Source: Lachnospiraceae bacterium (lineage in GTDB: Bacteria; Bacillota; Clostridia; Lachnospirales; Lachnospiraceae). From it: a DNA stretch of 43,572 bases. The position numbers were made by a program, and so were the translations under genes. The notes under the pieces were generated by a model. That model searched no databases. It saw only the letters and a program-made list of their open reading frames with translations, and had not been told where the DNA came from. Each line of letters starts with the position of its first letter. The stretch's first letter is position 1. The stretch is from positions 1 through 43,572 of the forward strand of contig JAFVCL010000005.1 in NCBI GenBank assembly GCA_017479285.1, in the 5' to 3' direction. This document shows, one piece after another, positions 25,117-36,330 of the stretch.

Positions 25117-26679
25117 TTATTCCGCAGTTCCGGTTTCCTCAGTTGTCTCCGTGGCTTCGGTACTCTCGGAGCTCTCAGTGCTCTCCGCGCCGGCATCGGT
25201 ATCCTCCGTGCTCTCCGCGGTCTCCTCCTCGGCCTGCTGCGTAAGGTAAGCGAGATTTCCGGTTACTTCCATATCCCCGGTAAGACCATCGAGATACTCG
25301 TTCATTCTGTCAGTCATCATCGCATCGGTGGCAGTAAGCTTCCATACCGGCTCACCCTCGTCAAGATAGTAGATAACATATGTATACATTCCCGCAACAA
25401 AGAAGCTCTCTACATCTCCGCGCTTTCTTTCGGAATTGAATATCCACTCCTTGATGTCCCCACTGTAGGTATCTGAATTCTGGTTTTCAAACAGGCCTCC
25501 CTCGGTGGAATCATCGATGGAATACTCCTCAACAAGCTCTATAAAGCTCTCCTCCGTCTTCTCACCGGCATTATACTTTTCAAGTATCTCGGCTCCGTTG
25601 TCGCTTTCCGTAACAATTCCTCTTAAGTTTACCGTAGGCTCTTCAGAGCGGTATCTTGAAGTAAATCCGACAACATAATAAAGGTTTGAAGCAGTATTTT
25701 CAATGACAGTTGTGTCACCTTCTTTTCTGCTCTCGTCAAAAAGCCAATCTCTGATATTGTAGTTAACCGAGGAGCTGAGCTGGTTTACCAAGGGCTCTCC
25801 GTTCTCAAAAACCGAAGCCTTCTCCCTCTCCGCGCTCTCCTTTGCAACCTTCATAGCCGCTTCCTTCTCCGCATCCGAAGGGGTATAGCTTCCATCCTCG
25901 GCCACCGCAGCGCCCTCGTCCGCCAGCTCTGTGGGCTCGGTGGGGAGCTGTGCGTTCACGGTTACAAGGCTGTAGTCGACAGAATCGTATGTGCTCTTGT
26001 TCTCGCTGTAATAGCTCTCAACCTCTTCATCAGAGGGAAGCTTTGAATCATATACGCTCTGGTAGTACTCACTTATCCGTGCCTGCTTTTCGACAACGCT
26101 CTTAAGTCTTGCCTTTGTTGCGTACTCTCCGTATGCGTTCTTAAGGTAATCGGCGACATTCATATCGCTTTCCTTCGCTGCCTTTTCCGCACTCTCGACA
26201 AATTCCTTCCACTTCTCGCCCGCGTCATAGGTAAAGCCTGTATTTTTTGCTTCCCTGTCAATAGCAACATTTTCCTTTAACTGCTCTGCGGCAAGCTGCT
26301 CGAAGTAATCCTTAAAGGTAAGCTTATCGGAATACATTACCGTAGCGGGATCTGCTCCATCGGTAAGTCCGTAATATGAAAGATAGCTTCCGTAGTTCTG
26401 GATATAGGTGTTCTTGACTGTATTGTATACATAGTCAAATTCCACTCTTCCGATCTTTTCTCCGTCCACAGTAACGACCGGTGTCCTGAGCGCTATAATG
26501 TTGCGGACCGGGAATGAAAGGATAAATCCGATAAGCGCGGCTACAAGAACCACGCCCACGATCTTCCAGATCATGAGAGACCTCTCCTCCCTGCGTTTAT
26601 CCTCAGCGCGCTTCTGCATCTTGAGATCATATTTTGTCATCACTTTATCTGTCTCGGTTTTATTCTCTTTAGCTGACAT
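25117..26679 (-). CDS. Membrane-anchored PrsA/SurA-like peptidyl-prolyl isomerase
   Basis: Extracytoplasmic foldase candidate of 520 residues. A charged cytoplasmic N-terminus leads to one membrane helix (about 36-57), so it is anchored by a helix and not by lipid as in PrsA. Then come a SurA_N-like helical region (DGEKIGRVEFDYVYN and onward) and a parvulin-like segment with ILEKYNAG, FIELVEEYSIDDSTEGGLF and IFNSERKRGDVESFF. A similar but weaker segment (IRDWLFDESRKEGD) precedes it, suggesting tandem parvulin-like units. The last 45 residues are almost only Glu, Ser, Thr, Ala and Asp. Isomerase activity is not proven by the motifs. Confidence 0.75.
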   Translation of the reverse strand: MSAKENKTETDKVMTKYDLKMQKRAEDKRREERSLMIWKIVGVVLVAALIGFILSFPVRNIIALRTPVVTVDGEKIGRVEFDYVYNTVKNTYIQNYGSYLSYYGLTDGADPATVMYSDKLTFKDYFEQLAAEQLKENVAIDREAKNTGFTYDAGEKWKEFVESAEKAAKESDMNVADYLKNAYGEYATKARLKSVVEKQARISEYYQSVYDSKLPSDEEVESYYSENKSTYDSVDYSLVTVNAQLPTEPTELADEGAAVAEDGSYTPSDAEKEAAMKVAKESAEREKASVFENGEPLVNQLSSSVNYNIRDWLFDESRKEGDTTVIENTASNLYYVVGFTSRYRSEEPTVNLRGIVTESDNGAEILEKYNAGEKTEESFIELVEEYSIDDSTEGGLFENQNSDTYSGDIKEWIFNSERKRGDVESFFVAGMYTYVIYYLDEGEPVWKLTATDAMMTDRMNEYLDGLTGDMEVTGNLAYLTQQAEEETAESTEDTDAGAESTESSESTEATETTEETGTAE

Positions 26680-26829: not shown

Positions 26830-28836
26830 TCAGGCGTTTTTGCGATACTGGAGAGGTGTCTTGTTAAAGCATTTCTTGAAGAGCCTGTTGAAATTCTCAA
26901 CATTCTCATACCCCACCTCCGCGGCTATGCTCTCTACACTCATAGTCGTTCCGTGGAGAAGATTTTTAGCCCTCTTCATCCTCTCGCTCTTTATAAGGTC
27001 CTGGAAGGTCTGGCCGGACTTTTCGCGGATAAACTTCGAAAGATAGGGCTTTGAGAGGTGGAACTCCGAGGTAAGATCATCGAGAGTCACATCCTTGTAA
27101 TGTCCCTGGATGTAACTTATTATCTGTGTAATCCTCTCCTCTCTTCCCTGGGTTATATGCTGCTCCGACGCCAGCCTGTTCACAGCGCTTGTCAAAGCTC
27201 CGATGGATGCCTTTATAATATCTTCGTCCACGCCCACTCCCCAATACATCTTACCGCTTGCAAGGATTCCGACATAGGATGCCGCCCTTGAGCTGGAACT
27301 CTTGGATATGGCATGCTCCTCGTATACCGACAGTTCGTAATCGATACCGAAAAGATTCTTGATGGCATTGCTTACCGCGTCAAGACGGCCGTTTCCGGAT
27401 GCCGTTATATCTCTTCTTTCTCCGCCTATCTCCGCGGTCAGCGTCGCGGTAATACCCTTGTCCTGTTTGAAATGACACTCGGGAATAGAAAATACATTTC
27501 TCGGAGTAATGTAGTTCTCCTCGAAGATCTGGAAAATCTCCTTTGGCAAAAGCTCCTGGTGCCTCTTGTCCGACACGCCCTTGATAAGATATCCGACCTC
27601 CTCCTGCATCGCTTTCGGAAGAGCAAATCCAAACTGATTCTTAAGGACAAAGGCTACTCCGCCTTTACCGGAGGTCGAATTAATACGGATAACATCGGAC
27701 TCGTACTCCCGTCCGACATCTGAGGGATCGATGGGAAGATAAGGGATATCCCAGCGCTTTCCGGTCTTTCCCGCATCTCTCCACGCCATGCCCTTGCTTA
27801 TCGCATCCTGGTGGGAACCGGAAAAAGCGGTAAACACAAGGTCTCCGGCATAAGGAGTTCTCTCGTGTACCCTGAGATTTGTGAAGCTCTCATACTTCTC
27901 TCTTATTCCCATAATGTCCGAGAAATCAAGACCGCTGTCCACGCCGTGAGTCATCATATTGTTTGCCACGGTAACAAGGTCAACATTACCGGTCCTCTCA
28001 CCGTTTCCAAAAAGCGTTCCCTCTACGCGGTCAGCTCCCGCAAGTACGCCAAGCTCCGCATCGCTGACACCCGTTCCTCTGTCGTTATGGGGATGTACGC
28101 TGAGCACAACATTATCGCGATACTTAAGATTCTTGCTCATATATTCGATCTGGCAGGCGAAAACATGGGGCATCGCCACCTGAACCGTTGAGGGGAGATT
28201 TATGATTACCTTCCTGTTTCTGGTCGGTTTCCAGACATCGAGCACCGCGTTGCAGACCTCAAGGGCGTACTCGGGCTCTGTCTGGGAAAAGCTCTCGGGG
28301 CTGTACTCAAACATAAAGTTCCCGTCCGTCTCGTCCGCCAGCTTTTTAAGAAGCTTCGCGCCGTCAACAGCGATCTTTTTGATTGCTTCCTTATCCTTCT
28401 TGAATACCTGCTGTCTCTGCTCAACAGAGGTGGAATAGTAAAGATGCACCACCGCTTTTGGAGCACCTTTTACCGCGTCAAAGGTCTTTTTTATGATATG
28501 CTCGCGGGCCTGGGTAAGAACCTGGATTGTAACATCGTCCGGTATCATATCCTTTTCGATAAGAGTCCTTATAAATTCGTACTCGGTATCGGAGGATGCG
28601 GGGAAGCCCACCTCTATCTCCTTAAAACCGATCTTTACAAGAAGCTCAAAGAATTCCAGCTTCTGTTCAAGGCTCATCGGGTCGATAAGCGCCTGGTTTC
28701 CGTCCCGAAGGTCAACGCTGCACCAGATTGGCGGCTTTGTGATCGTCTCCTTCTTCACCCAATCATAGGTAACTACCGGAGGCATATGATAAGTCTTCTG
28801 GTATTTCTCACTGTATTTATTCTTTGATACTGCCAT
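26830..28836 (-). CDS. leuA: 2-isopropylmalate synthase fused to a C-terminal AraC-type DNA-binding domain
   Basis: First step of leucine synthesis: acetyl-CoA plus 2-ketoisovalerate. Residues 1-556 match the long LeuA type: VDLRDGNQAL at 41-50 (metal and catalytic Asp/Arg), HPHNDRG at 248-254, GTLFGNGERTGNVDL at 273-287, and a C-terminal regulatory domain at about 440-556. After a short linker, residues 566-668 form a complete AraC/XylS double helix-turn-helix: first helix pair around 583-608 (LDDLTSEFHLSKPYLSKFIR), second around 632-665 (ESIAAEVGYENVENFNRLFK, then KTPLQYR). The reading frame is continuous with no stop between. Normal LeuA of this type ends near 550-560 residues. AAAGGAG precedes the ATG. 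A leucine-sensing regulator is an inference. Confidence 0.92.
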   Translation of the reverse strand: MAVSKNKYSEKYQKTYHMPPVVTYDWVKKETITKPPIWCSVDLRDGNQALIDPMSLEQKLEFFELLVKIGFKEIEVGFPASSDTEYEFIRTLIEKDMIPDDVTIQVLTQAREHIIKKTFDAVKGAPKAVVHLYYSTSVEQRQQVFKKDKEAIKKIAVDGAKLLKKLADETDGNFMFEYSPESFSQTEPEYALEVCNAVLDVWKPTRNRKVIINLPSTVQVAMPHVFACQIEYMSKNLKYRDNVVLSVHPHNDRGTGVSDAELGVLAGADRVEGTLFGNGERTGNVDLVTVANNMMTHGVDSGLDFSDIMGIREKYESFTNLRVHERTPYAGDLVFTAFSGSHQDAISKGMAWRDAGKTGKRWDIPYLPIDPSDVGREYESDVIRINSTSGKGGVAFVLKNQFGFALPKAMQEEVGYLIKGVSDKRHQELLPKEIFQIFEENYITPRNVFSIPECHFKQDKGITATLTAEIGGERRDITASGNGRLDAVSNAIKNLFGIDYELSVYEEHAISKSSSSRAASYVGILASGKMYWGVGVDEDIIKASIGALTSAVNRLASEQHITQGREERITQIISYIQGHYKDVTLDDLTSEFHLSKPYLSKFIREKSGQTFQDLIKSERMKRAKNLLHGTTMSVESIAAEVGYENVENFNRLFKKCFNKTPLQYRKNA

Positions 28837-29141
28837 AATATAACACTCCTTTATGCATCATCCGTTCAATTTGCTATATCGGTATATGAGCGATTTTAAT
28901 TTAGTCTTCCCGCCCGATTTCTCTGTGTTTTCCTTAATCCAGTGTGGCAAACACCGCCGATTACTGTATATCCTATCACTATTTACCTGATATATCAAGA
29001 CTCATTTATGCTATTTGGTTGACTTATTTTATCATTTATCCCCTCGCTCATATCGCATATCTTACACCCAAATCCTGATACTCCCCGTCTGTTCCGTATG
29101 CCCGGCGGTTTTTCTACCATGTCCTTAAAATCCGCATATTT
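28837..29141 (-). promoter_or_regulatory. leuA upstream region with promoter at 28970-28998
   Basis: This gene-free stretch carries a plausible minus-strand promoter: -35 TTGATA (28993-28998), 17-bp spacer and -10 TAGGAT (28970-28975). The -35 overlaps the palindrome TGATATATCA (28988-28997). The leader of about 130 bases has only a small GTGT/ACAC stem. I see no T-box consensus and no leucine-rich leader peptide. An open frame crossing 28995-29234 looks accidental. Confidence 0.45.
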
Positions 29142-31017: not shown

Positions 31018-31611
31018 TCAGATCAGCCCCAGGCGTACAAGCTCGTCGGGCTCCGGCCGGTTTAAATGACTTTCGGTTCCGTCATTATGCAGAATATGAG
31101 CCTTTTTATCGGTCGTATATCCGACTGCGCAGGCATTTATGCCCGCCTCCTTAAGTCTCTTAATGCACTCTTCCGCCTCGGGAACTATCGCAGTATAACA
31201 ACCCTCCGAATACAGATGGTACGGATTGACCTCAAGGAGCTCACAGATTTCGATCGTCTCCTGACGGACCGGGATTTTCCGAAGATCAAGTTCAAAACCG
31301 ACTCCGCTCTTCCCCGCAAGGTCATAAAGCGCCGTAAGTATCCCACCTTCGGACGCCCCGGAAACAAAGCACTCCTCCGGCTCCGGGATCCCGTAGCCCT
31401 TCAGGTATCCGATTATTATCTCCCGTGCGGATTCCAGCTTTCCAAGGAGTCCTGAACCGCCAAAGGAAACCGCGTTTCTTACAAGATGCGCCGGATATCT
31501 CTCATTTATCCTGTCCCCAAAGCTTTCAGCGAGGACAGCAGTACCCTTAAGCCCCATATAGCCGGTCATTATGACCGGCATATGATCATTTGTACTCAAT
31601 TGAATAATCAT
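31018..31611 (-). CDS. PurM/HypE (AIR synthase) C-terminal-domain protein without the ATP-binding half
   Basis: A 197-residue protein that resembles only the C-terminal half of the AIR synthase/HypE/ThiL/SelD superfamily: SGASEGGILTALYDLAGKSG corresponds to the DPTRGGLA-type loop of HypE, followed by ELDLRKIPVR, ICELLEVNPYHLYSEG and a closing VGYTTDK strand. The N-terminal ATP-binding domain is absent and no hydrogenase or purine gene is near. Its ATG overlaps the stop of the small membrane protein by four bases, supporting this start although no ribosome site is visible. Function unknown; a binding or scaffolding role is possible. Confidence 0.75.
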   Translation of the reverse strand: MIIQLSTNDHMPVIMTGYMGLKGTAVLAESFGDRINERYPAHLVRNAVSFGGSGLLGKLESAREIIIGYLKGYGIPEPEECFVSGASEGGILTALYDLAGKSGVGFELDLRKIPVRQETIEICELLEVNPYHLYSEGCYTAIVPEAEECIKRLKEAGINACAVGYTTDKKAHILHNDGTESHLNRPEPDELVRLGLI

Positions 31612-35448: not shown

Positions 35449-36330
35449 CTATATAAGCTGCTCTATCAGCTTCTCAACATCCAGAAGCTGCTCCCTGCTT
35501 CTCTCCTTTTTGCTCTGATTTCTGTACTGGGAGGGCGTTATCCCTTTAAGCTGGTGAAATGCCTTTGTAAACACCTGTCCGTCACTGTATCCGCAGGTAA
35601 GCGCGATGCTCTCGATAGAATAGTCCGTCGACTCTAAAAGCTCACGCGCCTTCGTTATCCTGAAGGTAGTCAAAAACTGCTGGGGAGACATACCGATAAC
35701 ATTCTGGAACAGCGTATAAAGATAGCTTCTGTTTATACAGACATAGTCCGCAACATCCGTAACCTTAATGGGGTTGTAATAATTGTTCTGGATGAAATCT
35801 ATTGCCTTGTTGACATAGACATTTCCCTTATCCTGATCTTCCCGGACCTCGACACTCTCGCTCCCCGCTATAACGGAGAGGAACACGCCCAGCAGCCCGT
35901 TCCGCCTCAGTTCATTTTGCATCCCGACCGTATTGTGCTCCATCATATCCCTTACGATATCGTAAAGCTCATTTGAAGCGTGGCAGGAAAATATTGGATG
36001 ATTCCCGGACAGACCCATGTTGCGAAGATAGTTTTCAGCCTCGCTCCCTCCGAAGCCCACCCAGAGATAGCTCCACGGTTCCTTCTCATCCGCCTCGTAA
36101 AACGCGAGCTCATCCGGCTCGATAAGAAACCCGTAACCGGCCTCTAAATGGTACTCTTTTCCGTGAAATCGAAAAAGCCCCTTACCGCTCAAAACATAAT
36201 GTATGAGAAAATGGGGCTTCGATGCCGGTCCGAAACTGTGAAGCGGCTCCGTCTGCGAACAGCCGCAGTTGTTCAGATACAGACTTCCGACTTTTTTGTT
36301 TTTGAATTCAAGCTTGAAGGCTTTCTCCAT
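35449..36330 (-). CDS. AraC family regulator with N-terminal cupin sensor
   Basis: Transcription factor of 293 residues. The N-terminal half is a cupin-type sugar-sensing domain (IHYVLSGKGLFRFHGKEYHLEAG is the recognisable stretch at about 43-65). The C-terminal 100 residues form the AraC double helix-turn-helix (VADYVCINRSYLYTLFQ, then SIESIALTCGYSDGQVFTKAF and PSQYRNQ). It belongs to the MsmR/RafR-like sugar regulators. It lies 18 bases after the REC-GGDEF gene and upstream of galK-galT in the same direction, so control of galactose use is likely but inferred. Confidence 0.92.
   Translation of the reverse strand: MEKAFKLEFKNKKVGSLYLNNCGCSQTEPLHSFGPASKPHFLIHYVLSGKGLFRFHGKEYHLEAGYGFLIEPDELAFYEADEKEPWSYLWVGFGGSEAENYLRNMGLSGNHPIFSCHASNELYDIVRDMMEHNTVGMQNELRRNGLLGVFLSVIAGSESVEVREDQDKGNVYVNKAIDFIQNNYYNPIKVTDVADYVCINRSYLYTLFQNVIGMSPQQFLTTFRITKARELLESTDYSIESIALTCGYSDGQVFTKAFHQLKGITPSQYRNQSKKERSREQLLDVEKLIEQLI

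Follow-up and report, generated by a model that had tools for sequence, protein, structure and literature searches.

The window, by which we mean the whole analysed stretch of 43,572 nucleotides from a Lachnospiraceae bacterium, carries on its reverse strand a gene in which 2-isopropylmalate synthase (LeuA) is joined to an AraC-type DNA-binding domain (DBD), with a predicted operator and promoter in front of it (Table 1). The sequence-only reading had claimed that a complete LeuA runs in frame into an AraC double helix-turn-helix, and this holds in all respects: there is one open reading frame of 668 residues, and its HMGL-like, IPMS_D2, LeuA_dimer and HTH_18 matches each exceed the Pfam gathering score (for HTH_18, residues 589-666, E 2e-20, 73 bits against 33.6). 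NCBIfam places the protein in the LeuA subfamily NF002991 with 798 bits (cut-off 455), positions 3-550 of the 550 in the model lying on residues 10-554, and the score for TIGR00970, 679.4, is slightly below its cut-off of 697.4. The DBD starts after the natural end of LeuA, since a second, weak alignment to the LeuA of M. tuberculosis (1sr9) extends to residue 643/644 of that protein. The motifs DLRDGNQ (42), HPHND (248) and GNGERTGN (277), which we take to be the metal-binding and catalytic motifs of LeuA, have a conservation of 0.99-1.00 across 78 fused proteins; in the junction none of the 11 positions is invariant.

Table 1. The fused leuA-araC gene, the parts of its product and its predicted control sites (positions in the window)
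Feature	Position	Strand	Basis
Fused leuA-araC gene (668 aa + stop)	26830..28836	(-)	ORF uninterrupted, ATG to stop
LeuA catalytic domain, HMGL-like, residues 37-312	27901..28728	(-)	Pfam E 2e-72, motifs, 1sr9 alignment
IPMS_D2 post-catalytic domain, residues 332-399	27640..27843	(-)	Pfam
LeuA_dimer allosteric (dimerisation) domain, residues 429-555	27172..27552	(-)	Pfam, NCBIfam, 1sr9 alignment
Short variable junction, residues 556-566	27139..27171	(-)	Alignment, structure model
AraC-type double helix-turn-helix DBD, residues 567-666	26839..27138	(-)	Pfam, alignment, pN/pS, structure model
Predicted operator upstream of own gene (window-clade version); right end overlaps TTGATA	28991..29036	(-)	Window-clade sites
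Predicted -10 hexamer TAGGAT, 134 bp before gene	28970..28975	(-)	Promoter layout

In the AF2 model the final helix of the regulatory domain covers residues 540-558 and is followed, after a short gap, by seven DBD helices within 567-666, for which the block pLDDT is 79-90. The model as a whole has a mean pLDDT of 79.6, with residues 327-354 and 356-392 below 50, and because its pTM is 0.52 the placement of the domains is unsure. The top matches in a structure search were M. tuberculosis LeuA (1sr9, 3fig), and the best 50 structure matches listed contained LeuA-type and other TIM-barrel enzymes instead of any AraC chain; AraC structures were matched when the fused protein was searched by sequence. 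The source genome is a draft of 102 contigs (87.5% complete), in which the fused protein is the sole LeuA match and five further matches are all AraC-type DBDs. Besides the DBD of the fused protein, the window has an AraC-type DBD at 35518-35817 (-).

An Lrp gene and an aminotransferase upstream had also been pointed out from the sequence alone. Both are present in the window, but they are not conserved neighbours, since they accompany 6 of the 41 closer fused loci and 0 of the 40 that are further removed, and as functional partners they were rejected on these counts. Directly downstream of leuA is a gene that looks PpiC-like by eye (25117-26679 (-)), and 34 of 41 close relatives, against 0 of 40 distant ones, have such a gene near their fused leuA. 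A HypE-like reading frame of 197 aa at 31018-31611 (-) matches the HypE model in its C-terminal third alone, and is possibly truncated or a different protein.

The pair of LeuA and AraC DBD was sought across Lachnospiraceae, as the sequence-only reading had proposed. In at least 68 of 299 genomes of the family the match runs without a break as far as residue 665 or further, and one more carrier (G163), with a contig end inside the DBD, brings the total to at least 69. Four carriers belong to other families, two of them to the same one (G641 and G507) and one to another (G643), these three from a search of the class, and one to another class (G983), and some carriers, e.g. G232, G191 and G296, are single-contig genomes. 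At the loci of named genomes 55 of 61 are unbroken, and the rest (L079, L081 and L093-L096) are contig-cut or broken. We therefore rejected a fusion by sequencing error, on the at least 68 unbroken genomes of the family and the 55 named loci. Across four groups of relatives, pN/pS averaged 0.066-0.086 for LeuA and 0.059-0.144 for the DBD, so that the DBD, like the LeuA part, is under purifying selection and is maintained. That the fusion is an artefact of assembly or annotation, or is decaying, is thus hardly credible; the window does come from a draft genome in 102 contigs, but neither the spread of the fusion, single-contig genomes included, nor the selection on the DBD agrees with it.

In a tree of 130 LeuA proteins, 79 of them fused, every fused row falls inside one clade of 87 rows (93% SH-aLRT). 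Eight rows of this clade are not unbroken fusions, and two of the eight are loci where the DBD is split off by frame. The tree requires six changes when these two split loci count as DBD-bearing, a pattern that a single gain would explain, together with several losses and some transfer into other families, although gain and loss are indistinguishable here, because change counts cannot separate them. At the two split loci, L146 (G061) and L159 (G078), the DBD follows directly after the leuA stop in another frame, the DBD frame is intact and the leuA operator pattern described below is retained; the arrangement may be a natural split, recoding or an assembly indel. Separate genes in relatives had been named beforehand as the case that would speak against the fusion; when this was looked for, the two other-frame loci came up, against at least 69 fused genomes. 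A search for the DBD at the loci without a complete unbroken fusion found no ancestral free AraC gene beside an unfused leuA; it gave the two frame-split loci, L079 (start contig-cut), L081 (frame broken) and L147 (contig end), and at L141 and L153 distant AraC matches only. Some fused genomes have a second, unfused LeuA with 51-55% identity (G022:C1, G108:C4, G641:C19 and G507:C160).

Comparison of the upstream regions gave a common site of fused leuA, TTAAAAAAnATCAA-n6-TGATTAAATTTnnCACTT, and the predicted operator, about 45 bp long, abuts or overlaps the -35 position. With at most one mismatch the pattern is present in 33 of 62 non-redundant fused upstream sequences and in 2 of 49 others, both of which are the frame-split loci L146 and L159, and in Markov shuffles it occurs in 0.8 of 62. 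The unfused and the shuffled sets serve as controls, since the pattern was devised after inspection of such upstream sequences. An operator score above 15 within 650 bp upstream was reached at 51 of 78 loci with the DBD and at 0 of 48 without it, against 2% of random 650-bp stretches of the loci; 35 of the 51 are training sites, and among the non-training loci with the DBD the count is 16 of 43.

The layout of the promoter differs between two groups of fused loci. In the general clade, TAnnnT stands at a single fixed offset downstream in 41 of 41 operators, which had been picked without regard to the -10, the next best offset reaching 19; TG precedes it in 38 of the 41, as in an extended -10. 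Their -35 positions, in the best of four registers, match TTGACA in 2 of 6 positions at 6 sites, in 3 at 20, in 4 at 14 and in 5 at 1. Class II activation would suit this clade, given an operator at the -35. In the clade of the window, the operator extends at its right end over a -35-like TTG with a spacer of 16-18 bp (24 sites, match 3-5 of 6), and in the window itself TTGATA matches in 5 of 6 positions and is 17 bp from TAGGAT; this overlap would be as compatible with repression. The operator of the window is a diverged form, with 10 bits in the general model and 21.7 bits in a model that includes the window operator. The symmetry of the half-sites is ambiguous, with a score of 0.15 for the best direct shift, 22 bp, and 0.12 for the inverted reading.

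Leucine T-boxes are distributed in nearly the opposite way. The Rfam T-box model (RF00230) matched 14 of 19 and 9 of 20 loci in the unfused lists and 1 of 12 fused loci (L181), and no T-box was found in the window at the Rfam gathering score. By a search for the core motif in the 650 bp upstream, T-boxes are present at 6 of 78 loci with the DBD and at 36 of 48 without it; this count covers 126 of the 130 tree rows, four with short upstream regions having been dropped, and takes the two split loci as DBD-bearing. The specifier codon could be read in 18 of 24 T-boxes and was a leucine codon in all 18 (CTC 12, CTG 5 and CTA 1), placed by eye after GAA, where it presumably lies. The DBD and the leucine T-box thus have a mostly reciprocal occurrence at leuA. 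Seven fused loci (G176, G108, G282, G218, G144, G007 and G983) have both, with a T-box above the Rfam gathering score and the operator just before it. When corrected for the tree, only 3 contrasts fall on well-supported (starred) branches and neither association is significant; the operator follows the DBD in an average of 2.6 contrasts and opposes it in 0, and the T-box opposes the DBD in 2.1 and follows it in 0.1. At L156:5722-5885 (-) and L150:2458-2616 (-) a Clostridiales-1 RNA (RF01699) separates the T-box from leuA, in two unfused genomes that are nested in the fused clade.

Whole genomes were scanned with a sequence-only model of the 41 operators (R1), in which the best 110-150 first-look candidates were scored per genome. 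In a first set of 14 fused genomes, each of which had contributed to the training, the top match was at leuA with one exception, G207, where it was at leuC. Among 57 further fused genomes, 39 have a match upstream of leuA at E<=0.02, namely 22 of 22 that contributed to the training and 17 of 35 that did not, which leaves 18 of the 35 without a leuA match; 5 of the 57 have other matches only and 13 have none. Two of the 17 are unusual, since the site is about 825 bp away in G007 and on the opposite strand in G137. Five of 57 control genomes without an unbroken fusion have a match; the one in G061 is strong and belongs to a frame-split locus of the training set, and the other four are weak, with no LeuA within 1.5 kb, so that leuA matches number 0 in 56 controls. 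The difference between 17 of 35 and 0 of 56 has a Fisher p of 4e-9, relatedness being ignored.

At the same threshold the 71 fused genomes scanned gave 16 matches away from leuA. Five of these precede branched-chain genes, whose names were checked against protein families: leuCD in G207; ilvB in G191, with ilvE further downstream and a T-box between the site and ilvB; a leuDC-like pair in G202, whose large subunit belongs to the IPM dehydratase/aconitase subfamily and not to the LEU2 equivalog; ilvE in G091; and ilvN-ilvC in G036. Five of 16 corresponds to a p of 4e-7 to 1e-5 if the chance per match is 1-2%, which is a guess. The other 11 are, by eye, not at recognised branched-chain genes (G207:C15, G145, G261, G156, G297, G047, G292, G005, G181, G203 and G116). 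All four genomes of genus g207 have the leuC site, but LeuC as a general target was rejected, as in a correctly oriented rescan the site scored at 4 of 19 fused loci, which belong to this single genus, and at 0 of 11 others.

A model of the window clade (R2), trained with the window site, gave only two matches in the source genome at E<=2, one at leuA (7.5e-4, in the training set) and a weak, inverted one at ilvE (0.13, not in the training set). In seven other genomes it found a leuD-type gene in G156 (0.004), ilvN (0.02) and ilvE (0.07) in G042, and ilvN in G198 (0.03), as well as many matches, some of them stronger, that are not at branched-chain genes, e.g. G116:C6 (6.7e-6) and G198:C24 (3e-4). 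By eye, the former (G116:C6:532921-532962; L323, L310), in a genome of the same genus as the source of the window, lies in front of a short-chain dehydrogenase-like gene, about 80 bp from its likely ATG, and the latter (G198:C24:11770-11811; L318) precedes a small unknown gene and then a transporter that looks to be of the CstA type. Another operator-like site, at G297:C19 (L307), is near genes that by eye are nitroreductase-like, aminotransferase and Lrp-like, similar to those beside leuA in the window.

With a DNA-binding part of its own and a matching, conserved promoter site, the enzyme is probably a regulator of leucine genes itself. The sequence-only reading had gone as far as to propose an enzyme and a leucine-responsive transcription factor in one; this stands as an inference from the operator that goes with the DBD, the sites at leu and ilv genes and the T-box pattern. 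The Lrp and aminotransferase neighbourhood to which it had pointed is not conserved. We consider it likely that LeuA-AraC is a leucine-sensing trigger enzyme which, as an activator, regulates its own gene and, to a variable extent, other branched-chain genes. From these data we infer DNA binding, binding as a dimer, activation and leucine as the off signal. The LeuA homodimer would bring two DBDs together, and when leucine is scarce the dimer would bind the operator beside the -35 position and help the RNA polymerase by class II activation, which would give more LeuA and, where sites exist, more LeuCD, IlvB, IlvNC or IlvE. Leucine in the pocket at the dimer interface would then, by one conformational change, both inhibit the enzyme and withdraw or reposition the DBDs. 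A passage in PMC11057210 places the leucine pockets of M. tuberculosis LeuA at the dimer interface of the regulatory domain, where binding closes a loop. The DBD joins the last helix of the allosteric domain, and on the simplest reading leucine would shut down the enzyme and the DNA-binding or activating state at the same time.

The same protein could also work with the opposite sign, as a repressor of its own promoter with leucine as co-repressor. This we regard as unlikely, though it deserves serious attention, since the enzyme regulators PutA and BirA are repressors according to a passage in PMC6978683. The operators of the window clade, lying over their -35-like TTG, could be read in the same way, and so could an operator-like stretch that at some loci can be seen by eye downstream of the -10. 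The promoters of the general clade point in the other direction, as a mostly poor -35 together with an extended -10 whose distance is the same in all 41 is the layout of an activator-dependent promoter, and many members of the AraC family activate transcription.

It is improbable, to our minds, that the DBD binds DNA and autoregulates with no part played by leucine, which would then affect the enzyme only. The variable and probably flexible junction makes coupling between the domains less than evident, but it is the allosteric dimer domain that carries the DBD, and the DBD sits where most relatives have a leucine T-box, so that transcriptional control by leucine would otherwise have been lost. 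It is also very improbable that the operator is the site of a free AraC protein or of Lrp, with the fused DBD doing something else or nothing. There are candidates enough, in the five further AraC matches of the source genome and the Lrp gene that adjoins in the window, but Lrp is not regularly found beside fused leuA, purifying selection acts on the DBD, and the operator score at leuA follows the DBD (51 of 78 against 0 of 48, training sites included as given above).

The trigger enzyme that we prefer has parts with well known relatives. It shares domains, their order, the catalytic motifs and the allosteric dimer domain with the long-form LeuA (NF002991/TIGR00970), to which the M. tuberculosis enzyme belongs, but the latter ends after the dimer domain and the fused protein adds a DBD of 100 residues. 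With the AraC/XylS family it shares the C-terminal double helix-turn-helix and a predicted site that abuts or overlaps the -35; the usual sensor domains of that family are of cupin, periplasmic-binding-like or receiver type, whereas the sensing partner here is a complete metabolic enzyme. In yeast, the LeuA product alpha-isopropylmalate is the ligand of a separate protein, Leu3, which activates transcription of the leucine pathway; in LeuA-AraC enzyme and regulator are one chain. The proline dehydrogenase PutA and the biotin ligase BirA each possess a DBD of their own. They are treated as enzymes that are transcription factors in a passage of PMC6978683, and, as proposed for LeuA-AraC, a pathway enzyme regulates the genes of its own pathway. 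LeuA-AraC differs from both in the enzyme and in the family of the DBD, as well as in being the feedback-inhibited committed step of its pathway and in that activation is judged likelier than repression. Enzymes as transcription factors are already known; our literature search of open-licence full texts found no paper on a fusion of LeuA with AraC.

The leucine T-box leaders (RF00230), found at most of the unfused leuA loci that we examined, have leucine-dependent control of leuA in common with the proposed system, but a T-box responds to uncharged tRNA and works through RNA, whereas for the fusion the signal would be free leucine and the point of control initiation. We lean towards a scenario in which the feedback-inhibited committed enzyme became, by an AraC DBD on its allosteric domain, a leucine sensor that activates its own gene and a small leu/ilv regulon, the content of which varies with the lineage. 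In the lineage, control by the DBD would first have been added above a leucine-specific T-box leader, in series with it, and would then largely have displaced it, so that an RNA switch for tRNA charging gave way to a protein switch for free leucine. The loci with an operator and a T-box in series may have caught this exchange midway.

Autogenous control by biosynthetic enzymes is an old idea, and LeuA-AraC would, if the reading is true, be a direct test case for it, in which a single allosteric site sets both the flux and the gene expression of a pathway. The protein could also be used as a leucine biosensor, and where an annotation pipeline gives only the label "2-isopropylmalate synthase", a transcription factor would be overlooked. 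For the family itself, the fusion would explain how leucine control can persist in the many gut and rumen Lachnospiraceae whose leuA has no T-box.
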